Below, one piece after another: positions 12,468 to 30,047 of a stretch of DNA of 30,047 bases (the first letter of the stretch is position 1; each line of letters opens with the position of its first letter). Made by a program: the position numbers and the translations under genes. The stretch spans positions 1 through 30,047 of the IMG/VR virus record IMGVR_UViG_3300032322_002385, one strand, 5' to 3'. Below the pieces are notes generated by a model. That model saw only the letters and a program-made list of their open reading frames with translations. It was not told the origin of the DNA and did not search any database. This stretch comes from a virus.

Positions 12468-13373
12468 TTAAGTTTTTGGACAATTATATTGGCAAGCTGA
12501 CTGTTGATCTAAATTTTGATAAAATCCAATGACCGATTTATCAGCAAGCAACTGGCTGATAGTAGTTTTGGTTATATCGTAACTTTTTTTATTTTTTCCA
12601 AATTGGTTCTTATAATAAAATCTATGGTCAGCCACCCAACAACAGGGTGAATAATGACCGTCTGCAGTGATAAAATGTTCTCGGCCGGTGGTGCACTTGG
12701 GATTGACGTTGAATATGAGATTTTCTTTTTTCCATCTTTCCTTAGAAGCAAATTTTTCTCCAATTAAATTTTTAGATTCAGGCATCAGATGCAAAGTTTG
12801 TTCGTCAAAACGATCACTAGGATCTAGCAAGAAAGTATCCATCCCTAGTTCTTGAGACAGTTTTTTGGCTTGTTCCACAGTTTCTTGATTGTAAGCGAAA
12901 GGAATATATTTCCACACAGTTTTACAGGTGCTGGCAACACAGGTTTCAATGGCGATTTGTATGCTGGGCCAGTCGGCATTTTTTCTATACTGTGTGAAAT
13001 TATCTGGTGTGCCATCTATGCTAAACCGAATAGTGTCTTGACTGTCAAGATAACCAGTTAATTCTTGCCACCAGCTTTGAGATTTATAACTGCCATTGGT
13101 AGTGATCGATATCTGTGTTCCTGCTTGTTTGAGCTTGGCTACAAAATTAATAAAATCACTGTGATATATTGGGTCTCCATAATTTCCACAAAGATCTATA
13201 AGTTTGCCAGAAAGATCAATGTCTAAAAATGACAGCAATGAGTCAATATCAAGATTGTGATTCTTCCAATGCCCGGGCCATTGATTGATAAATCTGGTTC
13301 TGGCACATCCGGCACATTTGAGAGTGCAGATATTGGTAGGTTCTATATGGAACCCAGTGATAGTGTCGATCAT
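12468..13373 (-). CDS. Radical SAM/SPASM-type enzyme
   Basis: 301 aa. The 4Fe-4S-binding C-x3-C-x2-C is at Cys16, Cys20 and Cys23, right after H-I-E-P-T-N-I. Y-G-D-P (65-68) stands at the GGEP position, and T-T-N-G-S is the next strand. Auxiliary-cluster cysteines at 227, 244, 245, 294 and 298 match a SPASM-like C-terminal region, with D-G-H-Y-S-P-C-C typical of it. Such enzymes modify peptides, proteins or small molecules by radical chemistry; the target is unknown. It lies directly after the 13375-13659 small gene and is one of two radical SAM genes in the replication block. Confidence 0.82.
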   Translation of the reverse strand: MIDTITGFHIEPTNICTLKCAGCARTRFINQWPGHWKNHNLDIDSLLSFLDIDLSGKLIDLCGNYGDPIYHSDFINFVAKLKQAGTQISITTNGSYKSQSWWQELTGYLDSQDTIRFSIDGTPDNFTQYRKNADWPSIQIAIETCVASTCKTVWKYIPFAYNQETVEQAKKLSQELGMDTFLLDPSDRFDEQTLHLMPESKNLIGEKFASKERWKKENLIFNVNPKCTTGREHFITADGHYSPCCWVADHRFYYKNQFGKNKKSYDITKTTISQLLADKSVIGFYQNLDQQSACQYNCPKT

Positions 13374-13374
13374 G

Positions 13375-13659
13375 CTAAGAAGTTTTGTTGATATCTTCTT
13401 TGGATATTTCGTGTCCGTTTTCCTGGAACAGGCGTTCTATGGTGGCCGCATAGTGTTGATAGTAATAGCCGACCACAGTGTCCCAGTCCTTGTTGGCCGT
13501 GATTCCGGCCACGCTGCATAGCAATACTCGTTGTTCCTTGAAATCCAAAATCACATTGGTCATTTGCCAATCTCGAGGCCTAAGTCGCTTGGTAATGGTC
13601 ATCACTTCGTCAATCTTGCCTGAAGGTTTGGTGTAATAGGTCAATAGTAGATATCTCAT
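13375..13659 (-). CDS. Conserved small T4-like phage protein
   Basis: 94 aa from ATG 13659, whose ATG overlaps the upstream radical SAM stop (ATGA). It starts M-R-Y-L-L-L-T-Y-Y-T-K-P-S-G-K-I-D-E. I recall this family in T4-like cyanophages close to the clamp-loader genes. Predicted beta-rich N-terminus and helical C-terminus; no catalytic motif. It is not recognisable as gp62. Its placement between two radical SAM genes suggests those were inserted around an older replication gene. Confidence 0.65.
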   Translation of the reverse strand: MRYLLLTYYTKPSGKIDEVMTITKRLRPRDWQMTNVILDFKEQRVLLCSVAGITANKDWDTVVGYYYQHYAATIERLFQENGHEISKEDINKTS

Positions 13660-14795
13660 ATGTGATATTTTTCCATAATAGAATGATAAGTTGATAAATC
13701 TTTGGCTTTGGGAGCGCACAAACCACACAAACACTTGTATTTTTTACACTGTATCACAGGCAAAGAATCTGTATCAAGTTGGTCACGCAACGTGGTCAAA
13801 ATTTGTTGGGCATTGTTGAGCGTGCCAATAGGACCAACCTGGCCATCAAAATTCATTTTACAGTCTTTGTTGACAAACACTTCTCCGTTGACCTGCTTGA
13901 CATAAAGGAAAAAATGATTAACGCTGCAATACCAGTCAGGAAATTTGTTTTCCACGTAAAAGTGTCTTTGTTTGTAATTTTCGTCGGCACAGAATTGCCG
14001 CCCTCCACAGCAGGCCCGACCCACATCGGTCAGATGTGCATCGGTGCTGACATCCAACAAATCCGTTGATTTGCCATGTGTTTTGGTTTTATAAAATTCA
14101 TCAAACCACTTGACCTGATTTTGTTTGTAATTTCTAGGACCATCAGAACCTACGTTGCCATCCAGTTGCTTGGGCAACACTCGAATGTTGTTATGGGTCA
14201 ACCAGTCAATCATGCCCACTGCATCTTTAAAAAGTTCGGTCTGTTGATGCACGAGTACCACACATTTTTGTCTGACACCGGCCCCGGCAATGGTTAATAG
14301 ATTGTCTTTGAATTGTTGTTTTTGTTTGTCGGTGCTTTCAGTATGATAGCTTACTGTGAATTCGTCAATCAAAGGTATAATTTTCTGTAATTTTTTATCA
14401 GATACAATGGCATTGGTAGTGGTGGTCACAGTCAAGTGCCAACGGTCACTGTATGGTTGATATTTTGTTCTAACTTGACTCAGTATGTCAACAATGTTGG
14501 GATGATGTAGGCTTTCGCCTCCGTACACATTGAGTACCACGTATCTAATGCCTTTGGGTTTGGTGCTCATGTACAGATCCACATACTCGAACATGAAATC
14601 CAAGGTTTCTAGACACTGGTCCAAGGGCGGATGTGGCGTGGTATTATCATGGCCACCATAAGTGCCACTGGGACAATAACTACAATCTAGATTGCATTTC
14701 ATTGTGAGTTCCCAATCCAGCAGAAATGTGATACGATTGTTGGGATCTACTGCAGGTTCTAATGTTTCAAACTGCGATGTAGTTACAGCTGACAT
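13656..14795 (-). CDS. Radical SAM enzyme with cysteine-rich C-terminus
   Basis: 379 aa. The core C-x3-C-x2-C is Cys34, Cys38 and Cys41, in M-K-C-N-L-D-C-S-Y-C-P-S. Y-G-G-E-S (91-95) is the GGEP-like motif and T-T-T-T-N-A follows. The C-terminal half has cysteines at 262, 263, 269, 290 and 312 and a terminal C-x4-C-x-C-x2-C (350-360), enough for one or two auxiliary Fe-S clusters (SPASM/twitch type). It begins 13 bases inside the 3' end of the clamp-loader gene, so it is expressed with the replication genes. A modified peptide or protein substrate is likely but unidentified. Confidence 0.82.
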   Translation of the reverse strand: MSAVTTSQFETLEPAVDPNNRITFLLDWELTMKCNLDCSYCPSGTYGGHDNTTPHPPLDQCLETLDFMFEYVDLYMSTKPKGIRYVVLNVYGGESLHHPNIVDILSQVRTKYQPYSDRWHLTVTTTTNAIVSDKKLQKIIPLIDEFTVSYHTESTDKQKQQFKDNLLTIAGAGVRQKCVVLVHQQTELFKDAVGMIDWLTHNNIRVLPKQLDGNVGSDGPRNYKQNQVKWFDEFYKTKTHGKSTDLLDVSTDAHLTDVGRACCGGRQFCADENYKQRHFYVENKFPDWYCSVNHFFLYVKQVNGEVFVNKDCKMNFDGQVGPIGTLNNAQQILTTLRDQLDTDSLPVIQCKKYKCLCGLCAPKAKDLSTYHSIMEKYHI

Positions 14796-15703
14796 AGTTC
14801 ACAAAGAGTTGCGCTGAGATTGATTTCCTGATCTGCGACCAAGGGCACATTGACCAAACCGTTGCGTATGATTATGATAGCCTGATCCTGCTGTTCTGGA
14901 TCCTTGGCCCATAAGTCTAGATTGTCATACATCCAGCGAAATATGTCATCGGCTTCTTCGGGTGTGGAACTTTGGCATAGTAAAGCACGGGCTTCTCGAG
15001 TGCGCCCATCCTTGAACAATTGCACACAGTCCAGTTTCCAATCTCCTGCTGCTTTGTCGGCTGAACTGGGAGCTACCAAGTGACCCGTGGTGCTGTTTTG
15101 TTGGACCAGATTCAAGCATTTGCGTAGATCTGGATAAGTGGCCCGCACATAGCTGTCCAGGGTGTCAATGTCAAATTCCACTTGTTCTGCGACCAGCACA
15201 GTGGCCACTCTGGCAGTGAATTCTACCTGATCTGTTTTGACTATGTGCAGTTGTTGGCAACGGCTGTGTATGGGTGGAATGATCTTGTTTGGATAATTGC
15301 AGGTCAGTATGAATCTCACATGATCACTGTAGTCTTCCATGAGATTACGCAGGGCCGGTTGCACACTCTGTGGATTCATGTAGTCGGCTTCGTCGATCAG
15401 CACGACCTTGAATGCGCCAAATGGCATGGTCTGGCAGAAACTGATCAGCTTGTCGACCCATTCGATCTTTCTAGCCTCTTTACTACCATTGGCCCACATC
15501 ACATCATACTCGTCAATGCCCAGCTCGTTGATCAGCATCTTGGCCAAGGTGGTCTTGCCTGTGCCGGGACTGCCCGAAAACAACAAATGTGGTATGCTTT
15601 TGTCTCGGATCCAGCTCATGACCTGTTCTCGTTGAGCGGCATCCACAAACACATACCCGTCAGCTGTGGTAGGACGGTATTTTTCTACCCAAAGTTCTTT
15701 CAT
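14783..15703 (-). CDS. 44: Sliding-clamp loader ATPase, T4 gp44-like
   Basis: 306 aa against about 319 for T4 gp44. Walker A is S-G-S-P-G-T-G-K-T (43-51), Walker B is V-V-L-I-D-E-A-D (100-107), sensor 1 is L-T-C-N (133-136), and the SRC motif with the arginine finger is at 147-149. The N-terminal E-K-Y-R-P is the standard clamp-loader opening. It loads the DNA polymerase clamp (gp45) with gp62; neither gp45 nor gp62 is recognised in this window. The ATG overlaps the stop of the upstream small membrane gene as ATGA. Confidence 0.93.
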   Translation of the reverse strand: MKELWVEKYRPTTADGYVFVDAAQREQVMSWIRDKSIPHLLFSGSPGTGKTTLAKMLINELGIDEYDVMWANGSKEARKIEWVDKLISFCQTMPFGAFKVVLIDEADYMNPQSVQPALRNLMEDYSDHVRFILTCNYPNKIIPPIHSRCQQLHIVKTDQVEFTARVATVLVAEQVEFDIDTLDSYVRATYPDLRKCLNLVQQNSTTGHLVAPSSADKAAGDWKLDCVQLFKDGRTREARALLCQSSTPEEADDIFRWMYDNLDLWAKDPEQQDQAIIIIRNGLVNVPLVADQEINLSATLCELCQL

Positions 15704-19311: not shown

Positions 19312-20190
19312 TCAGGCAAAAGCGGCACCGTTGTTGCCAATACAGAACCATTTGGCACTGATGTACTGCAAGGTGCAGGCTTGGCCTACTGCGCTAAAAG
19401 TAATTGTTCCAGCACCACCCCAGGCTGGGTTGGTTACGGTGATGACCATGTCACCGGAATCGCCACGCATGGCAAACACCTTGATCTGTCCTTCCGCTCC
19501 GGCAGCCAAGGTGGCTGTTTCTGCGGCCGCTGTGGTAAAGTAGCTGGTGGTCAGAGCTAGATTGGCACCCGCTCCATTCGCCAGGTCTTCACTGCTGTTG
19601 TTAAAAGGTTGTATCTGTTTGTTGGTTTCTCTGACAGTGACTGTGGTACCACCATTGCTTGTAATAAATGTAAAACTATAGACGCCAATTGCGGCAAAAG
19701 TAATAGTGTTGGTAGAAGTGTTAAGACCTTGGATTCCACGAGCATTGACCGAGACAGCGGACGGAAATGTCAAGGCATGCGCAGTGCTGGCCACAGTGAC
19801 CTGCACAGTGACAGTGCCAGCAGTTCCTGCCACAGGAAAGTTAGTAAAAGCCAGGCTGACTGCACCATTGGTAGTCAGAGTTTGAAAACTTCCCAATTCG
19901 TAATTGATAGTAACACTTCCGCTTAATGTGCCCAACGACAACACAGTTTCGCTCATGTCCTGTAATTGTGCATTGCTCAACACGGACCCTTGCATGTCGT
20001 TGTCCAAGGTGGTTCCGGCCAAGGCTGATTTCAATACTGCGTTGTTCTGCAGATCTGTTATTTCATCAGCAGCATATTGGAAATTGGTGGCTGTATTTGT
20101 AAAATTGTCGCGGAATCCTTGGCTGTTGTTATCCTGGCCGGCAACCGGATATGCGCCATCTATGTTGTTTGGGTTGATATTGCTTGTCAT
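19312..20190 (-). CDS. Virion/fibre-type structural protein
   Basis: 292 aa. It opens with N-I-N-P-N-N-I-D-G-A-Y-P-V-A-G-Q-D-N-N-S-Q-G, then F-R-D-N-F-T-N, a start shared by structural proteins of T4-like cyanophages. The rest is Thr/Ala/Gly-rich beta sequence with regular V-T-V and I-T-F strands, few charges and one terminal aromatic-rich patch. Probably a fibre, baseplate or neck appendage. AGGA lies before the ATG, and a GATAAATA box lies 45 bases upstream inside the preceding gene. Confidence 0.65.
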   Translation of the reverse strand: MTSNINPNNIDGAYPVAGQDNNSQGFRDNFTNTATNFQYAADEITDLQNNAVLKSALAGTTLDNDMQGSVLSNAQLQDMSETVLSLGTLSGSVTINYELGSFQTLTTNGAVSLAFTNFPVAGTAGTVTVQVTVASTAHALTFPSAVSVNARGIQGLNTSTNTITFAAIGVYSFTFITSNGGTTVTVRETNKQIQPFNNSSEDLANGAGANLALTTSYFTTAAAETATLAAGAEGQIKVFAMRGDSGDMVITVTNPAWGGAGTITFSAVGQACTLQYISAKWFCIGNNGAAFA

Positions 20191-20202
20191 GAATTTGTCC
20201 TA

Positions 20203-22746
20203 TTATTCTAAAATGTTCCGCTTGGGGAATACAATGTATTTATCGTAGCCCTGCGTGTTGCTGTACATATCGACAGGTGCGGTAAACTGCATGCTACCAC
20301 CATCAAATATGGTTGCTTGACCGTTGCTGATTTGAATATCCCAGGTAGCTCCTGTACCAGATCCAGTGATATTTGTTCCTGCTACATTGTAAAAAATTTC
20401 ACCTTCTACAAAAATACTGGCAGTGCCTGAGCAAAATGCATATTCTATGGTGCCTAGATTATTTACAGTAGACACAGTGATCACGGCGTCGTTGACACCG
20501 TTAGCACCTCCCAATTGACTGCCCAAAATTCTAATCTTATTGCCCACAGCATAATTAATACCACCAGAAAAAACCAAACTGCTATCGTTGGGTATGGGCA
20601 ACTGATAGTGCGGATCCACGTCAAACGTGGTCAGTGTGGGTGGTTGTGGTATCCAGTATTGATTTTCGCGGTCCCAGTTTTTGGTTAATAAATTATCCAG
20701 TTCATAACGGTCTGCTTTGAAATCTATCAAGTTGAGTTGTGCAACAAACTGTGTTTGTATGTTATAAGCGATCTGTCCACCTTGTCCAGGTTTGACGTAG
20801 GCTATAACCCAGGCCGGTGTAAATCCCAAGGTGGTTCCGTCGGCTTGCCGGCTCAGCATCCATCTGGGCAACACGCGGCTGACTTGACCCACGGTATCTA
20901 TGACCTGATCACGCATGTTTTGTAAACTGTTGGGATACACACTATCAATCTGTGTTGAGTCATTGGCATTGATCGGAAACGGCAAGACCACTTGTTTGCC
21001 CACACTCTCGCCTTGATTGTTGACCAAATTGTCGACCACAGTACTGTAAACCACTTCATAGATCACATTGCCGGCATCATCCAAGGCACGGGCCGTGCGT
21101 ATCTCTCCCAACACTAAATTTTTCCAATAGTGGTTGAGTTCCAGGCTGGCCACATACTCGTCCAACGTGGCAGCTGTGAGTCCATAAGCATGATTGTAGA
21201 TCACACGTCGGGCCACACCAAAATTGGGATCATCTGCGCGATAAATCAAGTCAGGTACAAATATAGTGGGATTTTGCAACAGGCTAGCCAAGAGATCTCG
21301 ATCATCCTGAGGTGGCATGGCTTGTATGTAAAGATTGTCAAAGGGTTGGTCGTAGCGTCTGACTGTGCGAATGCTAAATGTTTTGTTTACACTCACTATG
21401 CCGTTGATGCTGTAGGCATTGACGGTGAACGTGGCCACCATGTCAAAGGTAGTAGGTTGATCTACAGTGTTGAGTCCCACATCAAACACTGTGGTGCCGC
21501 CGTCTAAAGCAAAAGTATTGAAGCTAACACGTCCTGCTATGTTGCCCGACGGCAACAGTTGTAGTCCTTGCGGTAGTTGACTGTTGCTACCACTCAACAG
21601 TCTGTACAACAAAGGTATGCCGGCTACATTTTCAGCGGCTACATAAAAAGTGCTGGTAGCTCCGTTGTCAATAACACCCAGGTTGCTGGGGTTGCGAGCA
21701 AGTTCTACTGGATCAGTGGGTGTCAACCAGATCACATCTGAATTTACAGGGCCAGTAATGGTTAGGCTAAAATCATAGATACCACTGGCCACTGTGGGAT
21801 TGTCTATTTGCCTGACCACTAGACTAAAATCATATTGATCGCTCAACACTCCGCCAAACGGAATGTATCCATACATCCATCCTGACACTGGATCAAGAGT
21901 CAGTCCGGGCGGCAGTGCAGTGGTAGCAACAAATTCAATGGCATTTCCACCAAAATCCAGGCCCACAAACTGAAATGCATAAAAATTATCACTGCGTGTG
22001 GATCCAATGCTACCAGTGGGCGTGGTTATGATAGGTGATTGCACAGTACTGGTGTCGGCTGTGATAAAGGTATTGTCGGCTGTGATAAAGGTATTGTCAG
22101 CAGTCAACCGACTGCGAGCATAAATCAGTATGCTGAAGGTTCTCACGTCACTGGTCAGTCCATTGGTCACTCTCAGTGTGAAAGAATATGAGGTTTGTGT
22201 TATTGTGGCATCCGGATTGGGGGTGACGTAGCCGGTGATCACCCCGGTTGTGGACACAGTCAATCCATTGGGCAATGCTCCGGCAATGACAGTGACTATA
22301 TTGGTGGAATAGATATCAGGATCCGTGTACTGCAAAGTAACCGGATCAATCTGTTCACCATCAAAAAATGTAGCTATGTTGCCAGCTGGTGTGGTCCAGG
22401 TCACGGTGCTCTGTCCTGACACAGTCAGGCTAAAGGTACGATCTGCTAGACCAGTGATTACTGTGACACCGTTGACCGTGGTCTTGGTATAAGCACGTAC
22501 AGCAAACTGGTTGGTGGTATCATTGATCACATTTGTGGGCACACCTTGGACATCAGCAGTGGCCAAGGGATTCCCACTCAAAATACCAGTTTGATCTATC
22601 TGGATGCCAGGTGGCAATCTACCTGCTATGACCGAATAAAAAACTGTATTGCTGGCTGTGGCCACCAAGGGTATACTATAAAACACACCTTCGGGTATGG
22701 TTCCTAAAGTACCTGGCGGAGTAACCCAAGTTGGCTGAGTAGACAT
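20203..22746 (-). CDS. Tail-fibre/adhesin protein with Ig-like (He_PIG-type) repeats
   Basis: 847 aa. Four repeats of about 100 residues share the pattern P-P/P-N-G-L-x-(I/L)-x5-G-x-(I/M)-x-G, the putative-Ig (He_PIG/cadherin-like) signature: L-P-P-G-I-Q-I, L-P-N-G-L-T-V, L-P-P-G-L-T-L and L-P-Q-G-L-Q-L. They cover roughly residues 1-110, 113-213, 237-330 and 336-455. Each opens with W-(V/T/L)-T-P or similar. The 460-847 part is different and contains several regular segments likely to form a trimeric or baseplate-binding region. These domains bind glycans on the host surface in many phages. It starts right after the stop of the upstream fibre gene (spacing 1 base). Confidence 0.75.
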   Translation of the reverse strand: MSTQPTWVTPPGTLGTIPEGVFYSIPLVATASNTVFYSVIAGRLPPGIQIDQTGILSGNPLATADVQGVPTNVINDTTNQFAVRAYTKTTVNGVTVITGLADRTFSLTVSGQSTVTWTTPAGNIATFFDGEQIDPVTLQYTDPDIYSTNIVTVIAGALPNGLTVSTTGVITGYVTPNPDATITQTSYSFTLRVTNGLTSDVRTFSILIYARSRLTADNTFITADNTFITADTSTVQSPIITTPTGSIGSTRSDNFYAFQFVGLDFGGNAIEFVATTALPPGLTLDPVSGWMYGYIPFGGVLSDQYDFSLVVRQIDNPTVASGIYDFSLTITGPVNSDVIWLTPTDPVELARNPSNLGVIDNGATSTFYVAAENVAGIPLLYRLLSGSNSQLPQGLQLLPSGNIAGRVSFNTFALDGGTTVFDVGLNTVDQPTTFDMVATFTVNAYSINGIVSVNKTFSIRTVRRYDQPFDNLYIQAMPPQDDRDLLASLLQNPTIFVPDLIYRADDPNFGVARRVIYNHAYGLTAATLDEYVASLELNHYWKNLVLGEIRTARALDDAGNVIYEVVYSTVVDNLVNNQGESVGKQVVLPFPINANDSTQIDSVYPNSLQNMRDQVIDTVGQVSRVLPRWMLSRQADGTTLGFTPAWVIAYVKPGQGGQIAYNIQTQFVAQLNLIDFKADRYELDNLLTKNWDRENQYWIPQPPTLTTFDVDPHYQLPIPNDSSLVFSGGINYAVGNKIRILGSQLGGANGVNDAVITVSTVNNLGTIEYAFCSGTASIFVEGEIFYNVAGTNITGSGTGATWDIQISNGQATIFDGGSMQFTAPVDMYSNTQGYDKYIVFPKRNILE
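20236..20243 (-). promoter_or_regulatory. Candidate late promoter (GATAAATA) before the 19312-20190 gene
   Basis: Minus-strand GATAAATA lies inside the 3' end of the 847-aa gene, 45 bases upstream of the next structural gene's ATG. A late promoter at that spot fits a virion gene. The bases also encode Asp-Lys-Tyr, so the match may be coincidental. Confidence 0.3.
22054..22095. repeat. Tandem 21-base repeat inside the Ig-like adhesin gene
   Basis: Two identical 21-base units (22054-22074 and 22075-22095) plus the start of a third, encoding N-T-F-I-T-A-D twice at the linker before the third Ig-like domain. The length is a multiple of three, so slippage keeps the frame. Confidence 0.8.
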
Positions 22747-22747
22747 G

Positions 22748-24769
22748 TTACAAGATCACAGCTTGAATGATTTTTTCACCAGGGTCGGAATTGGTTTCAA
22801 GAGCCTTGGCAAACACAGCCTGACCATAGGATCGATCACGACCCACACTTTGAGCATGTCCAGATGTGCTAGATGTGACCAAGCTGTCTCCTTTGAATAC
22901 CGGTCCTATGACCATGACCGGCACACGTCCACGCAAGGCCACTGGCAGTCCTGGTTGCCCTGCATTCATCAAGTGAGCAGGATTGGTACTAATGACTCCG
23001 GCCACACGCTCGTCGGCTGCTTCCTGGCTAATGGTTATTTCCTGCTCACCACCAAACACAACCACAGTACCAGCTTGGTATTCAGCATCAGATTCATAAT
23101 TCTCTGCTAGGTCAGCGTATTGAGCACTGGTGGCATTGGCAAACACTGTGTTGAAATATCCCGTAGAACTTCCAATGTTGCCCACACCATTGGCGTTGGC
23201 ATTTATTATATTGCCCAGGGTAATGCCACCAGTTCCTACACTGAGATTGCCACCAGTTATGTTGCCTGAGTCTACACTGAGATTGCCACCAGTTATGTTG
23301 CCCGAGCCTACATTAAGATTGCCACCAGTTATGTTGCCCGATCCGCTGACTATACCAGAGCTGAATAAGATATTGCCACCGTTTACGTTACCGGTAATAC
23401 TGAATGTGGTTCCTGTGTAGGCAACAGCTTCGACATTTCCTGCTATCACATTGCCCGAGACCGAAGTTAGACCAGTTATGTAGGCCCCGGTATTGGCAAA
23501 TATGGCCAAGGGACTCACACCTGTCACATTTATTATCACGTTGCTGTTAGCCGAAGCAATTGTTACATTGCTGTTGCCGTTTTGGATTGACGTAGCGTCA
23601 GTGATGCCCGTTAGCTGGCTGCCATTGCCCAATATATAATTGCCAGTGATATTTCCGGTGGCCGTAATCTGACCACCTGTGCGAATATTTCCACCGGTGA
23701 CGTTGCCACTTACGCTAACACTGGTTCCTGTGTGGCTCGTAGCCGTGACATCTCCGCTGACATTGATATCTTGGCCAACTGAAAGATAATTGGCAGTCCT
23801 TATGTTTCCGGTGGCACTGACTTGGCCACCTGTGCGAATATTTCCACCGGTCACATTGGCTGTTACACTTAAACTTGACAAAGTGCCCACACCAGTTATA
23901 TTGGTCTGTGAGGCTGTGGCCAAAGTACCTATAAGATTACCACCAGTGATGTTTCCAGCAGTTGAAACGTTGCCAGCAATCACATTACCTAGGCTGCTGA
24001 CAACTCCCAACACTGTAAATGTGTTAGAATCCTTGTTAAAAGTCATGGCCGCAGTGGCATCTGCATTGCCACTGGTGTTGAATATGACCTGTGTGTTGCT
24101 ACCGGGTACTACAAAGTTTCCAGTGATGTTACCAAAAAAGTTTCCAACAAAATATTGATCTGTAACAATGTTGCCTGTAGCACTGACTCGGCCACCTGTT
24201 AGAACATTACTACCAGTTATGTTACCACTTGTAATCGTACCTGTGGTGGATATAACATTTGATCCAAAACCGGACAACAGAGAGATCACATTGGAATTAC
24301 TATACGATTGAGGTAGTCCTGCGAGTTGACTGCCGTTGCCTAGAATGTAGTCGCCTGTTACATTGCCAGTGGCACTGACCAGTCCGTCAACATACTGACC
24401 AGTGGTGGCAACCACAACCACATTGGAAGTTCCTGCTATGCTGGTAGTGGCATTTCCATTGACATCGGCGATTTTTACGTTACTTGTGCCACTGCTGATT
24501 GAGCTTACGGTTATATTGCCAACCTGTGTTACTTGACCCCATATTGTACTGGTACCATCATAAGTGTCAAAACAGTAATAAAAATAAGTAGAATCTACAG
24601 CGTACATTCCAGGAACATCACCGGTGGTTCCTATCAACGACACAGGTGGATCAACTTGGAATCTCGCATACAACTCGCTAAAATTGCTATTGCAAAAGTT
24701 AAATGCAGTTGCCAATGGGGTACCGTCACCAGAATTTGTGGGGGTGGTAACAATAGTAAGTTGAGCCAT
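22748..24769 (-). CDS. Long fibre protein with GN/ITGG repeats and a conserved C-terminal domain
   Basis: 673 aa. Residues about 70-545 consist of dozens of short repeats such as S-A-T-G-N-I, I-T-G-G-N-L and V-S-G-N-V, typical of beta-helical phage fibres. The N-terminus (A-F-N-F-C-N-S-N-F-S-E-L-Y) is the attachment-type opening of T4-like cyanophage structural proteins. The C-terminal 120 residues begin A-Q-Y-A-D-L-A-E-N-Y and include G-D-S-L-V-T-S and G-Q-A-V-F-A-K-A, a domain found at fibre ends. AGAGGA lies 9 bases before the ATG. Probably a host-recognition or decoration fibre. Confidence 0.78.
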   Translation of the reverse strand: MAQLTIVTTPTNSGDGTPLATAFNFCNSNFSELYARFQVDPPVSLIGTTGDVPGMYAVDSTYFYYCFDTYDGTSTIWGQVTQVGNITVSSISSGTSNVKIADVNGNATTSIAGTSNVVVVATTGQYVDGLVSATGNVTGDYILGNGSQLAGLPQSYSNSNVISLLSGFGSNVISTTGTITSGNITGSNVLTGGRVSATGNIVTDQYFVGNFFGNITGNFVVPGSNTQVIFNTSGNADATAAMTFNKDSNTFTVLGVVSSLGNVIAGNVSTAGNITGGNLIGTLATASQTNITGVGTLSSLSVTANVTGGNIRTGGQVSATGNIRTANYLSVGQDINVSGDVTATSHTGTSVSVSGNVTGGNIRTGGQITATGNITGNYILGNGSQLTGITDATSIQNGNSNVTIASANSNVIINVTGVSPLAIFANTGAYITGLTSVSGNVIAGNVEAVAYTGTTFSITGNVNGGNILFSSGIVSGSGNITGGNLNVGSGNITGGNLSVDSGNITGGNLSVGTGGITLGNIINANANGVGNIGSSTGYFNTVFANATSAQYADLAENYESDAEYQAGTVVVFGGEQEITISQEAADERVAGVISTNPAHLMNAGQPGLPVALRGRVPVMVIGPVFKGDSLVTSSTSGHAQSVGRDRSYGQAVFAKALETNSDPGEKIIQAVIL
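23243..23350. repeat. Three tandem 36-base repeats in the fibre gene
   Basis: Units at 23243-23278, 23279-23314 and 23315-23350 each contain GATTGCCACCAGTTATGTTG and encode the 12-residue I-T-G-G-N-L repeat. The near-identical DNA suggests recent duplication, and copy number could change in frame. Confidence 0.8.
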
Positions 24770-24828
24770 AGATATGTGTCCTCTGGCTTGTATTTACCAG
24801 CGGGCAAGTTCTTGGGTGCTAGGGGTGT

Positions 24829-25155
24829 TTAGTAGGGGCTAAAACTGCTGCCACATCCGCATGTGGTCTGGGCTTGTGGATTGTTGATGGTAAAACTGGC
24901 ACCCATGACATCATCTCGGTAGTCCACAACAGCACCTTGTAGATAACCTCCGCTCATGCTGTCGACCAGCACTTTTACACCAGAGATTTCCAGATCCCAG
25001 TCATCTTCGTTTTGGGTTTCATCCAGGGTGAATCCGTAGCTCATTCCGCTACACCCACCACCCTGCACAAATACACGCAGTTTGAGTTCAGGATTGTTTT
25101 CTTCGGCCAGGATATCTTTGATTTTGGCCACTGCGGATTCGGTTACTGTGATCAT
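24829..25155 (-). CDS. A-type Fe-S cluster carrier (IscA/ErpA/SufA-like)
   Basis: 108 aa, the family's usual length. The three ligand cysteines are all present: Cys35 in G-G-C-S-G and Cys99/Cys101 in the terminal [15 protein letters not shown] is a family signature near the end. These proteins accept Fe-S clusters and hand them to apo-enzymes. No scaffold (IscU) or desulfurase (IscS) is encoded here, so it would draw clusters from the host. It is the last gene of a group with SOD and a radical SAM enzyme. Its ATG overlaps the HNH endonuclease stop. Confidence 0.92.
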
Positions 25156-25625
25156 ATTTTCTCTCTTGGCCAGGCACTTGCCTTACCACCCTTTATCATT
25201 TTAGTTACCACAGAATTGAAATGCCTTTGTTTATTCTGTTCAGGAGTCAAGGCAAAAATCCCTGTGCGATGTTTTTTTGCGTATGCTCCACCTTTTTTGC
25301 CTCCAACTGATCCTGCTCTAGAAGCATGTCCTAATTTGAATCCACATTTTCTTTCGGCATTATTCTTAACTGCTTGAGCTCTACTTAATTCCGATCTTTC
25401 TTGATAACTGATTCCTGCTCGAACTGCGATCAAGGCAGCTGCGGCCTTGTCGCCTTGATTCTTATGAATGTGAAAGTGTTCGAGTGCAGTTACAGGCGTT
25501 AAATTTTCAATAGAATTATTTTTTGAGTTGCCGTCAATGTGATGAATTTCAATAAAAGGCAACAAGCAACACCGGTAGTGTGCTTCGTAAATTTTTCTGT
25601 GGATTTTAGAATTTTTGCGTTTCAT
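25152..25625 (-). CDS. HNH homing endonuclease
   Basis: 157 aa from ATG 25625. The HNH core includes [12 protein letters not shown] and [15 protein letters not shown], the usual HNH pattern. The C-terminal half is basic with short N-x-E/G-x-K repeats suited to DNA binding. I chose 25625 because a late-promoter box and a hairpin abut it exactly; a frame running to 25682 would overlap the SOD gene. It sits free-standing between sod and the IscA-like gene. It probably cleaves the same junction in related phages and spreads by homing. Confidence 0.82.
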
Positions 25626-25641
25626 CTCGTGTTCCCACGAG
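25626..25641 (-). promoter_or_regulatory. RNA hairpin abutting the HNH start codon
   Basis: Minus strand CTCGTG-GGAA-CACGAG, a perfect 6-base-pair stem with a GNRA-type loop, followed at once by the ATG. The GGGA that would serve as ribosome-binding site lies in the loop and the top of the stem, so translation should be restrained. T4 homing endonucleases such as I-TevI use similar hairpins. Confidence 0.65.
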
Positions 25642-25649
25642 TATTTATG
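25642..25649 (-). promoter_or_regulatory. CATAAATA late-promoter-like box before the HNH gene
   Basis: Immediately upstream of the hairpin and immediately downstream of the sod stop. A T4-type late promoter here would start RNA inside the 5' arm of the hairpin and free the ribosome-binding site late in infection, as known for some T4 homing endonucleases. Confidence 0.5.
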
Positions 25650-25650
25650 T

Positions 25651-26205
25651 TTACAATCTTTCGTTGCAAACATCCCAGTCAATGATCCGCCAGATATTGT
25701 CTAGGTATTTCTCTTTGTCCCACTTGTAGTCGAGAGCAAATGCGTGCTCCCACCAGTCAACCAGTACACAAATATCTGTTCTAACCTGATGGTTTGGTAT
25801 TGTTTTAATTGTGCCTGTAGTGCTCAAATAAATCCAGCCCGAACCTTGTATTTTCATGGCTGTTTCTTTGAAAGCCTGTTTGAAATCTTCATAGGTTTTG
25901 AAATTTGATTCTATGAGTTCTAGCACAGCACCGCGAGGACGATTGGCACCCTTGGGCGGTTTCAGCTGTGGGAAAAACTTGTTGTGCAAGAAACTGCCTG
26001 CACGGTTAAAGTCAGCATTGCCCTCACCGGCATTGTAGCGTTTGGCATAGCCCTTGGCTAGATGCCCGTAATGATAGTTGATGCTGTCTTTACTCAGCAC
26101 CGGTTCCAGATCCTTTTCACCATAGGGCAAGGGCGTGGTTTCCAGCTTGGCCGGACGAGTAGTAGCTTCTAGCAGGTCTAGATCGTGTCTTATTGTGTGA
26201 TGCAT
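25651..26205 (-). CDS. Fe/Mn superoxide dismutase
   Basis: 184 aa from ATG 26205. The four metal ligands can be placed: His45 in Y-H-Y-G-H-L, His74 in S-F-L-H-N-K-F-F, and Asp150 and His154 in V-D-W-W-E-H-A-F. Y53 is a candidate for the second-sphere tyrosine. L-P-Y-G-E-K-D-L-E-P-V-L and G-S-G-W-I-Y-L are family signatures. It has about 24 extra N-terminal residues and is shorter in the middle than E. coli SodB. It removes superoxide, which damages Fe-S clusters; that fits the IscA-like and radical SAM neighbours. Fe or Mn preference cannot be told. Phage Fe/Mn SODs are uncommon. Confidence 0.85.
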   Translation of the reverse strand: MHHTIRHDLDLLEATTRPAKLETTPLPYGEKDLEPVLSKDSINYHYGHLAKGYAKRYNAGEGNADFNRAGSFLHNKFFPQLKPPKGANRPRGAVLELIESNFKTYEDFKQAFKETAMKIQGSGWIYLSTTGTIKTIPNHQVRTDICVLVDWWEHAFALDYKWDKEKYLDNIWRIIDWDVCNERL

Positions 26206-26210
26206 AAGTG

Positions 26211-26218
26211 TATTTATG
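26211..26218 (-). promoter_or_regulatory. CATAAATA box before the SOD gene
   Basis: Minus-strand CATAAATA, 5 bases before the SOD ATG, with the TAA inside it serving as the stop of the preceding SGNH gene. Same box and same spacing as before the 10357-10938 gene. Promoter function would give a nearly leaderless mRNA; coincidence with the stop codon is possible. Confidence 0.3.
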
Positions 26219-26912
26219 CTTTTAGTGCCTGAGCATAAGTATCTACCCACAAGTCACAAGCGGCCTTGTGAGCATCTTCAAGTGGGTGCAATCCCGGATC
26301 GGTCACCTTGAATCCGTGTTTATGGCTCCAATCTAAAAAAGTCAATCCTTCAAAAGTTTGTAAGGATTCCTTAGTAAGGTCCTGTAGAGTTTTAATATAG
26401 TCAGGTGCATGCCAGGTTATGTCCCACATTTCGGCATCCATGTAAGTTTGAATACTGGTCACGTTGAGATGTTTTAAAAACTGTTGAGAAGAATAAATGG
26501 TCTGCAAGGTTCTAAACTTGTCCCATAAGGTGCTGTAGCCAGGATACTTGTTGTAAAACTCCAATACCTTTTCGGCTTCTTGAGATCCAATCAGTGGTGC
26601 CAACTTGGCTGGCACACAACTTAGACCTAGAGTGGTCCAGATTTCCTTTTCAGGAATATAAAAATCCCAACGGGCTCCCCAGGTCCAGTTAATTACAGCC
26701 AGCACATTGTCGCCGGGATTATTTGAAAAATAGGTTAGGATTTGACGACTAATATTTTCATTGCCACATCCAGGCACAGCCATAGTCTGATACTCAACTC
26801 CTAATTGGTTTGCCGCTTGGCCTATCCAACTTAATTTTCCATTACTATTGTCGGCAAGTTCGTTGCCAAAAACAAAGCTGTCGCCAAACCCAACTATTTT
26901 TGTTTTCATCAT
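26214..26912 (-). CDS. SGNH-hydrolase-like protein
   Basis: 232 aa. Block I is G-F-G-D-S-F-V-F-G (Ser12), the Asn segment is V-P-G-C-G-N-E-N, and D-P-G-L-H-P at 205-210 holds the probable Asp and His209. It is a paralogue of 9137-9799, sharing F-V-F-G, the G-N segment and H-P-L-E-x-A-H. Here the Asp is four residues before the His, not three. ATG 26912 overlaps the upstream radical SAM stop (ATGA), so the two probably work on the same substrate. Confidence 0.7.
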   Translation of the reverse strand: MMKTKIVGFGDSFVFGNELADNSNGKLSWIGQAANQLGVEYQTMAVPGCGNENISRQILTYFSNNPGDNVLAVINWTWGARWDFYIPEKEIWTTLGLSCVPAKLAPLIGSQEAEKVLEFYNKYPGYSTLWDKFRTLQTIYSSQQFLKHLNVTSIQTYMDAEMWDITWHAPDYIKTLQDLTKESLQTFEGLTFLDWSHKHGFKVTDPGLHPLEDAHKAACDLWVDTYAQALKA

Positions 26913-28045
26913 TGTGCCTCATATAATGTTAAATGATTTTCACGCCTAATCTGATTAAGGGTTTGATTATATAACTGACTTCTTTCCCACAATTTTATAT
27001 CAAATTTAGCAGATGCAATCTGAGCAATTAGACCGGTTAACATGTTTCTTTGCTCGTCATCCAAATCCAGTGCCAAACAAGATTCTAAGTAATCTATTGC
27101 CAATGGTAGTAGTTCTTCTGATAAATTATCGGCCGCTAAATGATATGGGCGTTGACAAACAAAAAATTGATGGCGACATCCTAGATCGCCATGCCGTCCA
27201 CTGGGTGTGACACTAAGGTGTTGCATACGTCTACCAAACTCTAGCAAAGGTTTTATTGCAAAAACTGTTAAATTAGACACAACAGAATTTATATCCAAAC
27301 TGTTGGCATGATGTGCCAACCAAGCCACATTCCGTTCGATTACTGCCCAGTTTGATCCATGTCTGACAATTTCAGCAGCTGTACCGACCGCATCAATGCT
27401 CACAGTCCAATGTAGATTTGGCAATTGCTCGGTTATTTCAAACCAAAAATCATCTTGAAAACTTGCATTTGAAGTGATCATAACCATTACATCTTTATGG
27501 TCTTGTTTGATTTTCTTGATAAGTTCCCGAACCCCAGGGATTACAGTGGGCTCACCACCGGTAAACATGATTCTTTTCAACGATCCTAGGTTACGCTTAA
27601 TCCAATCTACGTTAACATCTGTAACTGATACGGTTTTGCCTGCGGGCGGATTTCCAAAAAACTGTTGTAATTCAGGGTGATTGTTAATTTCTTGAGCTAT
27701 GCCATGACTGAATACTGGATTACAACTACGACATTTAAAATTGCAAATGTTGACTGATCTAAAATCTATAAAATCAAGTTCGGTATTGGTAAACACTTGA
27801 TGATTGTAATCTCTGTTGCTGTTGATTCGTAAACTGGTGCCATACGCAGACTCGTGTTTAACACATGCTTGACATACCTTGGGAGTATTTCCGTTAAGTA
27901 ACTCTTGTTGTAAATTTAATAGTTCTGGATGCGCAAGCCATTCGTCTAACGATACTTGATATCTTGGAGTTTGGCAACACGCTGATATACCTGTGCTGTC
28001 AATGTAGGCATGCCTAAATGGCAGTGGGCAATACCAGTCAGACAT
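26909..28045 (-). CDS. Radical SAM enzyme with N-terminal SPASM/twitch-type cysteine region
   Basis: 378 aa. Order of parts: an N-terminal region with Cys6, Cys23, Cys24, Cys58 and Cys61 (C-P-L-P-F, then A-C-C, then C-Q-A-C), the radical SAM C-x3-C-x2-C at Cys101, Cys105 and Cys108, and G-G-E-P at 163-166 with I-T-S-N-A next. The auxiliary-cluster region comes before the radical SAM core, as in the twitch-domain radical SAM proteins I know from bacteria and phages. These often sit near glycan or peptide modification genes. It starts 2 bases after the IF-1 stop and overlaps the SGNH start. Substrate unknown. Confidence 0.82.
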   Translation of the reverse strand: MSDWYCPLPFRHAYIDSTGISACCQTPRYQVSLDEWLAHPELLNLQQELLNGNTPKVCQACVKHESAYGTSLRINSNRDYNHQVFTNTELDFIDFRSVNICNFKCRSCNPVFSHGIAQEINNHPELQQFFGNPPAGKTVSVTDVNVDWIKRNLGSLKRIMFTGGEPTVIPGVRELIKKIKQDHKDVMVMITSNASFQDDFWFEITEQLPNLHWTVSIDAVGTAAEIVRHGSNWAVIERNVAWLAHHANSLDINSVVSNLTVFAIKPLLEFGRRMQHLSVTPSGRHGDLGCRHQFFVCQRPYHLAADNLSEELLPLAIDYLESCLALDLDDEQRNMLTGLIAQIASAKFDIKLWERSQLYNQTLNQIRRENHLTLYEAQ

Positions 28046-28047
28046 AG

Positions 28048-28266
28048 TTATCGGCGACGAGTTATGCGTCCACGAGTAAGATCATATGGGCTGAACTCTA
28101 GTTCTACCACATCGCCGCCTAAGACCTTGATGTTGTTCATTCTCATGCGACCATTAAGGCTGGCCAGAACGGGCTTGTCAAAGTTATCAATTCGTACTCG
28201 ATACATGGTGTTGGGTAGAACTTCTTCTATAACACCTTCCATTTTGATAACATCTTCTTTGCTGAT
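28048..28266 (-). CDS. infA: Translation initiation factor IF-1, apparent ATC start
   Basis: 72 aa if started at ATC 28266, exactly the length of E. coli IF-1. The first residues are then (M)-S-K-E-D-V-I-K-M-E-G, aligning with M-A-K-E-D-N-I-E-M-Q-G. AAGGAG lies 7 bases before the ATC. The first ATG (28242) has no such site and would remove eight conserved residues. The S1/OB fold is clear: L-P-N-T-M-Y-R-V, G-R-M-R-M-N-N-I and the ending Y-D-L-T-R-G-R-I-T-R-R. IF-1 binds the ribosomal A site and, with IF-3, helps reject wrong start codons. A phage copy could bias initiation towards phage mRNA. The ribosome-binding site overlaps the end of the GIY-YIG gene. Confidence 0.9.
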   Translation of the reverse strand: MSKEDVIKMEGVIEEVLPNTMYRVRIDNFDKPVLASLNGRMRMNNIKVLGGDVVELEFSPYDLTRGRITRRR

Positions 28267-28277
28267 GTTTATTCTCC

Positions 28278-29168
28278 TTATTCTTTACTTAGCTTACGAG
28301 CTTGAGCATCGGCTGATTTATGACTTAACCATTCCCAATCATTTTTTGGACCTGTTTGAGTATAATACTGTTCTTTTGGAATTCGATTTAACGTTCCTTC
28401 TTTATTAATTACTATTACCATGCCTTGATTTTGTTTGCCCCATGATTTAACATTCTGCTGTTTTGCTCGAGCTTTTTTAATTTTTTCTTTAGTTTTTGCA
28501 GAGAGCGGACCTTTATTTTGTTGTGCGGCCTTCATATTAGCACGAGCTTGCTCAGACTTAGGTTTTCTAAGTTTAGCTTTAGTTTCCTCAGATCTTTTTT
28601 TGCCTATTAATTTGGCTCGGCGTTTTTCAATAGTTTCTGCAGATTGTTTTTTGCCTAAATTAGCCTCTCTTAACTTTTGTTTACTTGCGTCTGGGAACTG
28701 CCATTCGCCTTTTTTGCGAAGAGTTCCGTTTCTTGCTTTAGTAGCTAATCCCTTTTCTGCGGCAACTTTGGCTACGTCAGGAGGCAACGGCTTTGGAACT
28801 CCGCGTTGTTTTGCAGCGATTCTTTCTACCATCTCTCTTGGTCTCGGCCCAAACCAAGTTGCGCCACCGTCTGTGCCATTCTCAATAATCTGATTAGCCC
28901 ATATTTTTTTGTTGTCTTCGTTTACGGCTTTAACAATGTTATTTTCAATGGAGAATAACTTAGCGGCTTGAATGCATTCTTCTTTGTTGATGTAATAACC
29001 TATAATTTCTGTAGTTACATCATTACCGTGTTTTTTAAGGTGAGCAGTCCAATAAATTCCAGAACCGCGATATTGGTAAGGATCACCTGTAGTTTTACCA
29101 AAGTATTTTAGGCCAGTTACATTATGGGTTTTGGTATATAGAGTGGTAGGTTTAAATGGTTTACCCAT
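28278..29168 (-). CDS. GIY-YIG homing endonuclease with NUMOD3-like repeats
   Basis: 296 aa. The N-terminal T-L-Y-T-K-T-H, then L-K-Y-F-G-K-T, is a degenerate GIY-YIG start, followed by Y-R-G-S-G-I-Y-W. From about 165 to 245 come basic repeats of the form L-G-K-K-x-S-A-E-T and K-R-S-E-E-T-K-A-K, the NUMOD3 DNA-binding modules of SegD-like enzymes. It is AT-richer than its neighbours, as mobile endonuclease genes in phages usually are. It lies free-standing between the 29210-29608 gene and infA, and its stop region supplies the infA ribosome-binding site. Confidence 0.82.
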   Translation of the reverse strand: MGKPFKPTTLYTKTHNVTGLKYFGKTTGDPYQYRGSGIYWTAHLKKHGNDVTTEIIGYYINKEECIQAAKLFSIENNIVKAVNEDNKKIWANQIIENGTDGGATWFGPRPREMVERIAAKQRGVPKPLPPDVAKVAAEKGLATKARNGTLRKKGEWQFPDASKQKLREANLGKKQSAETIEKRRAKLIGKKRSEETKAKLRKPKSEQARANMKAAQQNKGPLSAKTKEKIKKARAKQQNVKSWGKQNQGMVIVINKEGTLNRIPKEQYYTQTGPKNDWEWLSHKSADAQARKLSKE

Positions 29169-29173
29169 GGTAA
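29161..29173 (-). promoter_or_regulatory. Inverted repeat around the GIY-YIG start codon
   Basis: Minus strand TTACC-ATG-GGTAA: 5-base arms with the start codon as the centre. In RNA the AUG would be held in or near a tight loop. Short, so chance is possible, but it resembles the translation brakes seen on other homing endonuclease genes. Confidence 0.35.
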
Positions 29174-29175
29174 TT

Positions 29176-29183
29176 TATTTATG
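29176..29183 (-). promoter_or_regulatory. CATAAATA late-promoter-like box before the GIY-YIG gene
   Basis: Minus-strand CATAAATA, 7 bases before the ATG at 29168. Both homing endonuclease genes of the window carry this box directly upstream, which suggests private late promoters. Confidence 0.45.
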
Positions 29184-29184
29184 C

Positions 29185-29218
29185 CTATCGTCTTATTACC
29201 TATGTAAATCTATCGTCT
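29185..29218. repeat. 9-base direct repeat upstream of the GIY-YIG gene
   Basis: CTATCGTCT occurs at 29185-29193 and 29210-29218. The second copy is the end and stop of the 29210-29608 gene. The first lies 16 bases away next to the CATAAATA box. It may be a scar of the endonuclease insertion. Confidence 0.5.
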
Positions 29219-29608
29219 CATCCTAGCAATCTCTACGATATGGTCGGAATCAAATACTGGGACGGCATTAGATTTTGCCATCTGTGCTATTCCGACTACA
29301 GCATCTCCGGTATAGGTCTGGTCATGCTTTTTCACGCAAGGAATCCAACCAGTGTCACGGCTTTCTATGCGAGGAGTTTCACGTCCGAGTGGAGGTGCTA
29401 GATTTACAGTGAGAGTGCCACGTGGACTTTTGGGTTCAGGTGCGGATTTGCTGAACTTGGGAGCCATTTGCTTGAAGTTTCCAAGACGTTGTTCCCATTC
29501 TTGTTGTAGCAGTTCGGCCTTTCTTTTGGCTTCAGCACTGGCCCAACGTCGTGGACCCTTTTTCTTGCCTGTGGTTGTAAGCCAAGGACCTTCCAAATGA
29601 AATGCCAT
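29210..29608 (-). CDS. Conserved phage protein of unknown function
   Basis: 132 aa. It starts M-A-F-H-L-E-G-P-W-L-T-T-T-G-K-K-K-G and has a very basic helical N-terminal half (R-R-W-A-S-A-E-A-K-R-K-A-E). A Pro-rich linker follows, then a compact C-terminal part containing D-T-G-W-I-P-C and Y-T-G-D-A-V-V-G-I-A-Q-M. I have seen this type in T4-like phages of open water but know no function. GGAGG lies 6 bases before the ATG and is part of a long hairpin with an internal promoter. Confidence 0.65.
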   Translation of the reverse strand: MAFHLEGPWLTTTGKKKGPRRWASAEAKRKAELLQQEWEQRLGNFKQMAPKFSKSAPEPKSPRGTLTVNLAPPLGRETPRIESRDTGWIPCVKKHDQTYTGDAVVGIAQMAKSNAVPVFDSDHIVEIARMRR

Positions 29609-29615
29609 TATACGC

Positions 29616-29658
29616 CTCCAGATCTTTTATTCATACTACTATTATAACAGATCTGGAG
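29616..29658 (-). promoter_or_regulatory. RBS-sequestering hairpin with 10-base-pair stem
   Basis: Perfect inverted repeat: CTCCAGATCT at 29616-29625 and AGATCTGGAG at 29649-29658, with a 23-base loop. On the minus strand the 3' arm carries the GGAGG of the downstream gene, so read-through RNA would hide the ribosome-binding site. There is no U-run, so it is not a standard terminator. Confidence 0.7.
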
Positions 29659-29669
29659 TTTTGGGTCAA
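29641..29669 (-). promoter_or_regulatory. Sigma70-like promoter TTGACC-N17-TATAAT inside the hairpin
   Basis: Minus strand: TTGACC at 29669-29664 (5/6), a 17-base spacer, and a perfect TATAAT at 29646-29641. The predicted start, near 29634, lies in the hairpin loop, so transcripts begun here lack the 5' arm and leave the ribosome-binding site free. Confidence 0.72.
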
Positions 29670-29673
29670 CCGT

Positions 29674-29988
29674 TTACTTGAACAAGATCATGGCCATGAC
29701 CACAGCCTGGATCGTAAAACCCATGCCAATTGTGACAATGTTTAACATGTCTTTGAGTACCACGGCTCTGGCAAACAACAAGACCAGGCCAGTCCACATG
29801 AACAACACTATGTCCAGGTTGGGCACTGTGTCAGACAGTCCTGTGAGCAAGGCCAACAGCGTGGGTATAGTAGCACAGTGTATGACTACTACCGCCAACC
29901 AACCCAGGGTATCAGCACTTACTTTGGGCCAGTGTTGATCTAACCAGGTTCTTAAAGAATTCAATAACTCGTCTAATTTGATTATCAT
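29674..29988 (-). CDS. Three-TM phage membrane protein
   Basis: 104 aa. An amphipathic N-terminus is followed by hydrophobic segments at about 28-50, 58-75 and 84-103. No signal peptide or known motif. The ATG overlaps the upstream partial gene's stop (ATGA). It could be a holin-like or superinfection-exclusion protein, but nothing decides between these. Confidence 0.65.
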   Translation of the reverse strand: MIIKLDELLNSLRTWLDQHWPKVSADTLGWLAVVVIHCATIPTLLALLTGLSDTVPNLDIVLFMWTGLVLLFARAVVLKDMLNIVTIGMGFTIQAVVMAMILFK

Positions 29989-30047
29989 ATTTTGTCCGCA
30001 TAAAAAATGTGTCTCCCAAATTTAGCTACCTGTGGTTTGCCCCACTG
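29985..30047 (-). CDS. C-terminal end of an unidentified gene (partial)
   Basis: An open frame enters from the right edge, encodes 20 residues ending in F-G-R-H-I-F-Y-A-D-K-I, and stops at TGA 29985-29987, overlapping the next ATG as ATGA. The overlap is of the kind used throughout this genome, which supports it. Too short to identify. Confidence 0.5.
   Translation of the reverse strand, partial: QWGKPQVAKFGRHIFYADKI

Follow-up and report, generated by a model that had tools for sequence, protein, structure and literature searches.

How can a gene be expressed when its Shine-Dalgarno sequence lies within one arm of a hairpin and a promoter lies across the other arm? This question is raised by a locus near one end of a viral DNA stretch of 30,047 nucleotides (IMG/VR record IMGVR_UViG_3300032322_002385; the whole stretch analysed is referred to here as the window). 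With a probability of roughly 80%, the arrangement serves as a cis-acting expression filter, by which the gene is switched on from its own promoter and insulated from upstream transcription. Polymerase arriving from the upstream gene would generate RNA containing both arms, the pairing of which would bury the Shine-Dalgarno sequence and prevent the 132-aa gene from being translated. RNA initiated at the host-type promoter would begin in the loop, lack the 5' arm and hence the stem, and be translated, such that the protein would be made only upon firing of its own promoter. The elements involved are as follows.

29674-29988, minus strand: upstream same-strand ORF of 104 aa, predicted by inspection to be hydrophobic; putative source of read-through
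29664-29669, minus strand: -35 box TTGACC; TTGAC is invariant in 21 aligned relatives
29644-29658, minus strand: 5' arm CTCCAGATCTGTTAT, lying in the spacer between the boxes and extending into the beginning of the -10 box
29641-29646, minus strand: extended -10 box TATAAT with a 17-bp spacer and TG upstream; nearly invariant in 21 aligned relatives
29634, minus strand: transcription start predicted from promoter spacing, within the loop of 13 nt; coincides with the A of an ATG
29616-29630, minus strand: 3' arm ATAAAAGATCTGGAG, over GGAG of the Shine-Dalgarno sequence; covaries with the 5' arm
29615-29619, minus strand: Shine-Dalgarno sequence GGAGG, assigned by sequence, 6 nt before the ATG
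29608-29634, minus strand: possible leaderless 8-codon mini-ORF MNKRSGGV*, assigned by sequence; its TAA overlaps the gene's start codon
29210-29608, minus strand: putatively controlled gene, a 132-aa protein of phrog_27048, function unknown

Architecture of the locus and its upstream gene

The 10-bp stem (CTCCAGATCT/AGATCTGGAG) contains no mismatch, and the whole inverted repeat, with 14 of 15 positions paired, ranks first in the window's list of such repeats, in which the longer, lower-ranked entries are imperfect self-overlapping palindromes. A sequence-only reading had placed the hairpin and the promoter at the correct coordinates, and its observation proved real and even understated. It had described a perfect stem over GGAGG; the 10 bp are indeed perfect, and the 3' arm covers GGAG, with the last G (29615) just beyond it. 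Its near-consensus sigma70 promoter is likewise confirmed, while the layout it gave, with the promoter across the 5' arm and loop, requires small corrections: the -35 box stands just outside the 5' arm, the 5' arm sits inside the spacer, and the stem overlaps part of the -10 box, the longer pairing (14/15 pairs) taking in TTAT there. An intrinsic terminator was considered for the repeat and rejected, since no T run follows the 3' arm and the site is absent from the terminator listing.

The promoter (TTGACC-17-TATAAT, 29669-29641, minus strand, with TG before the -10 box) matches 11 of 12 consensus positions. Its score is the best in 20000-30047, tied with two other sites, in a region where promoter-like sites are near chance level (23 against 19.2 expected). 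The predicted start at 29634, 7 nt past the -10 box, falls in the loop, so that the stem could be formed solely by read-through RNA. In fold calculations, RNA carrying both arms reaches -20.0 kcal/mol (z -3.8, equalled by 0 of 200 shuffles) versus -3.7 for RNA from +1, which is at chance level (z 0.0). The predicted cost of opening the region from the Shine-Dalgarno sequence to the AUG is 13.2 kcal/mol for read-through transcripts, compared with 4.2 kcal/mol for own-promoter RNA; the duplex of GGAGGC with the anti-Shine-Dalgarno sequence is predicted at -9.3 kcal/mol. The stem, the promoter, the conserved complementarity and the read-through geometry are supported by computation; promoter activity and repression in the cell are inferred.

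The upstream ORF at 29674-29988 ends 4 nt short of the -35 box on the same strand. Among 54 representatives, 44 have a same-strand ORF ending no more than 15 nt from the -35 box, compared with 12% at random positions; with the upstream gene in most cases running up to the -35 box, one would expect read-through to occur. At many phrog_27048 loci, the TGA of the upstream gene often lies inside the -35 box TTGAC itself. Intrinsic terminators before the promoter are few among family loci. In the relative L003, a Hydrolase_2 gene (endolysin-like in PHROGs) is followed by a 110-aa ORF, the positional homologue of 29674-29988, and next by the hairpin and the gene; nothing there is terminator-like. 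Presence of a stem and an abutting upstream gene are associated in the predicted direction, not significantly (p 0.26-0.37). The promoter-in-hairpin layout also precedes unrelated genes, namely Hydrolase_2 cell-wall hydrolase genes (L212:400-1008 and L213:400-1008) and a 75-aa ORF (L275:1222-1504). Most hydrolase relatives lack it, and it is therefore not a general rule across other genes.

Conservation of arm pairing among relatives

Searches of IMG/VR with the protein, one relative and an alignment yielded about 95 distinct upstream regions, 75 of which contain a sigma70-like promoter (at least 9.5 points on our own score). The promoter stays near-consensus and keeps its distance constant even in diverged relatives, among them clades whose arms are unrelated. 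Stems are less widespread: against shuffled 3' sides, 24 of 75 are significant at p ≤ 0.01 and 30 at 0.05, with 45 not significant at 0.05. As many promoter-bearing members have weak stems, the stem is a trait of certain clades and not of the whole family. One of the strong stems, L210, looks like a chance case within coding sequence. A search of genome contigs for relatives found none, and among cultured phages only the distant homologues in ACP17 and BUCT-ZZ01 were recovered, with no similar promoter-hairpin arrangement upstream by eye.

The arms have diverged almost wholly among relatives and retained complementarity. The window's clade carries the arms AGATCTGG; a second clade ACTCG...GTTAT/ATAAC...CGAGT with one bulged base; a third ACCTCCAAACTT/AAGTTTGGAGGT; and a fourth CCAAAAGT/ACTTTTGG, with the Shine-Dalgarno sequence under the 3' arm in all four. 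The distant clades CCTCCAAACTT/AAGTTTGGAGG and CCAAAAGT/ACTTTTGG have different arms and still cover it; in group B, the Shine-Dalgarno sequence within the stem is weak (GAG). Across 59 representatives, cognate arms pair with a mean energy of -8.93 kcal/mol, compared with -6.22 (sd 0.32) when 3' sides are permuted, and the cognate value was matched by none of 100,000 permutations.

When 21 relatives are aligned ungapped with MAFFT and without structural guidance, 77.5% of the cells are paired and 7 pairs have changed on both sides; covariation amounts to 0.242 against 0.133 (sd 0.014) after shuffling, with 0 of 500 shuffles as high, and sliding the register gives 0.184 at best and 0.04-0.12 otherwise. 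A structure-guided alignment, biased towards structure by placing the second clade's bulge by hand, gives 87.2% pairs and a covariation of 0.341 against 0.155 shuffled and 0.06-0.10 for slides. The changes are distributed across pairs and clades (for example, C-G, U-A and G-C at columns 20/46), although the sequences are related and the counts hence do not represent independent events. RNAalifold returned a weak consensus or none on mixed alignments, since the register of the arms differs from clade to clade. The expectation of the sequence-only reading that the arms would be kept complementary in relatives was thus checked and borne out, both by covariation and by cognate-arm pairing.

RNA fold, DNA operator and other readings

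A dyad at the -10 box could instead be the site of a repressor dimer, with the RNA fold incidental. The dyad does overlap the promoter, and co-evolution of a repressor with its operator can also yield arm changes on both sides. Against such an operator stands the kind of mismatch tolerated: strong stems contain 28 G.U and 8 A.C pairs under a scoring that treats both alike, against ratios of 1.15 and 1.28 in the shuffled and swapped controls, with a binomial p of about 0.002 that is not corrected for relatedness. A protein-read dyad in double-stranded DNA has no strand preference and no reason to favour G.T over A.C, so the excess favours RNA, pointing to a fold of the coding strand rather than to a DNA operator. 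Moreover, the 5' arm in group B carries one additional unpaired base at varying positions, which is easier to reconcile with RNA; the 3' arm lies invariably at the Shine-Dalgarno sequence; and other exact copies of the arm in the relative G001 are not at promoters by context. With neither a strand-neutral dyad nor recurrence at other promoters in G001, the operator of a dimeric repressor is disfavoured and considered unlikely.

The hairpin could also be a regulated RNA switch, serving a working upstream promoter and opened by temperature, a small RNA or a protein, with the internal promoter there by chance. Hairpins that sequester the Shine-Dalgarno sequence in this manner are common in bacteria. 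The conserved spacing of a near-consensus promoter, even where the arms are unrelated, argues against a chance promoter, and no Rfam family reaches its gathering score anywhere in the window, making this explanation quite unlikely. Cleavage of the stem by a double-strand RNase, which would free the Shine-Dalgarno sequence and activate the read-through RNA, is highly improbable: the 14-bp stem is double-stranded RNA and phages commonly make use of processing by RNase III, yet a stem of this length is short for that enzyme and the loop promoter would be superfluous.

The preferred reading, a stem formed in read-through RNA, had been put forward from the sequence, and that logic is now supported by covariation, by the excess of G.U over A.C, by the fixed place of the promoter between the arms, by the position of upstream gene ends at the -35 box and by the calculated energies.

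A more elaborate version involves the mini-ORF. In 17 of 21 relatives, its stop falls at the codon with which the gene starts; a stop is found there in 48% of control genes, and owing to this chance rate the mini-ORF is kept as speculation. Many genes of these phages, UvdE-like, DnaJ-like, MetK-like and HAD-like ones among them, appear to be leaderless (L050-L142; 19046-19267, minus strand, in the window): the pattern TTGAC-N18-TATAAT-N6-ATG, which places the ATG at the predicted +1, has 46 matches in 15 of 16 records and 0 when reversed. Since true genes in related phages start at the +1 of such promoters, a leaderless start is conceivable here. A two-lock device of polarity opposite to that of T4 might then operate, in which translation of the leaderless 8-codon ORF leads to coupled re-initiation on the gene and longer or later RNA is silenced by the hairpin, giving expression that is on early and off in read-through; this remains a doubtful proposal.

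Promoter class, timing and comparison with known systems

The 320-kb relative G001 has both sigma70-type words and T4-late-like NATAAATA words enriched before its genes. The latter (L354-L370) precede the tail sheath, tail tube, head-tail adaptor and a tail protein, while the sigma70-like promoters precede genes for a UvdE-kind endonuclease, HNH and exonuclease proteins, an ATPase and others; the roughly 25 kb upstream of the hairpin promoter in G001 hold the sigma70-like class only. The promoter studied here (TTGACC-17-TATAAT) belongs to the sigma70-like class and is distinct from NATAAATA. It is host-type and probably early, a time of expression that we infer, and upstream transcription may be early as well. 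The contrast with T4 drawn by the sequence-only reading, namely that the promoter is of the host type, is upheld by the separate T4-late-like motif before the relative's tail genes. In the window, NATAAATA is found before three ORFs (19312-20190, 25152-25625 and 1463-2089; minus strand).

The insertion sequences IS10 and IS50 use inverted repeats to shield transposase expression from transcription entering from outside, the read-through RNA folding over the start site, with a host-type promoter beside an inverted repeat that is part of the transposon end. The present locus differs in having no transposase and no transposon end, and its arms evolve freely.

In phage T4, inhibitory structures occur at the start sites of e, soc, 49 and I-TevI (PMC3014915). 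Upstream RNA of gene e folds, late-promoter RNA lacks the 5' strand, and the longer RNA supports 100-fold less synthesis (PMC3014915). The comparison with gene e made by the sequence-only reading is apt (PMC3014915): by sequence and predicted fold, the Shine-Dalgarno sequence is sequestered in longer transcripts, and the promoter lies on the 5' strand with its predicted start past the 5' arm. The two differ in that T4 uses late promoters (TATAAATA), off early and on late, whereas here the promoter has a sigma70 consensus and does not fall in the late class; here, in addition, an unrelated gene is involved and arm covariation extends across many phages. The hairpins of I-TevI, I-TevII, I-TevIII, segB and Aeh1 mobE follow the same promoter/hairpin plan within long polycistronic RNA (PMC2988022). 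They share this common logic, although they belong to homing endonucleases with phage middle or late promoters, and a review stated that genes under such control "are all late genes" (PMC2988022). Judged by analogy, the proposed mechanism is well understood and is new in its promoter class.

The T4 promoter-in-hairpin logic would thereby reach beyond phage late promoters to those of the host type, an extension backed by phylogenetic covariation. If this is right, the translatability of one and the same coding sequence would be set by the start site of the message, and predictions of expression in such compact phage genomes would go wrong if drawn solely from operon maps and RNA levels. The insulating part is simple, as one promoter and one complementary arm would suffice to render a gene deaf to upstream transcription. 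Selection seems to act against out-of-schedule production of this conserved phage protein, whose function is unknown.

Elsewhere in the window, the ORF at 25651-26250 (minus strand) encodes a phage-borne Fe/Mn superoxide dismutase, with a radical SAM gene (26909-28045) and an HNH endonuclease gene (25152-25682) as neighbours. Two further radical SAM proteins are encoded beside a phrog_168 clamp-loader ATPase at 12468-13373, 13656-14795 and 14783-15703 (minus strand).
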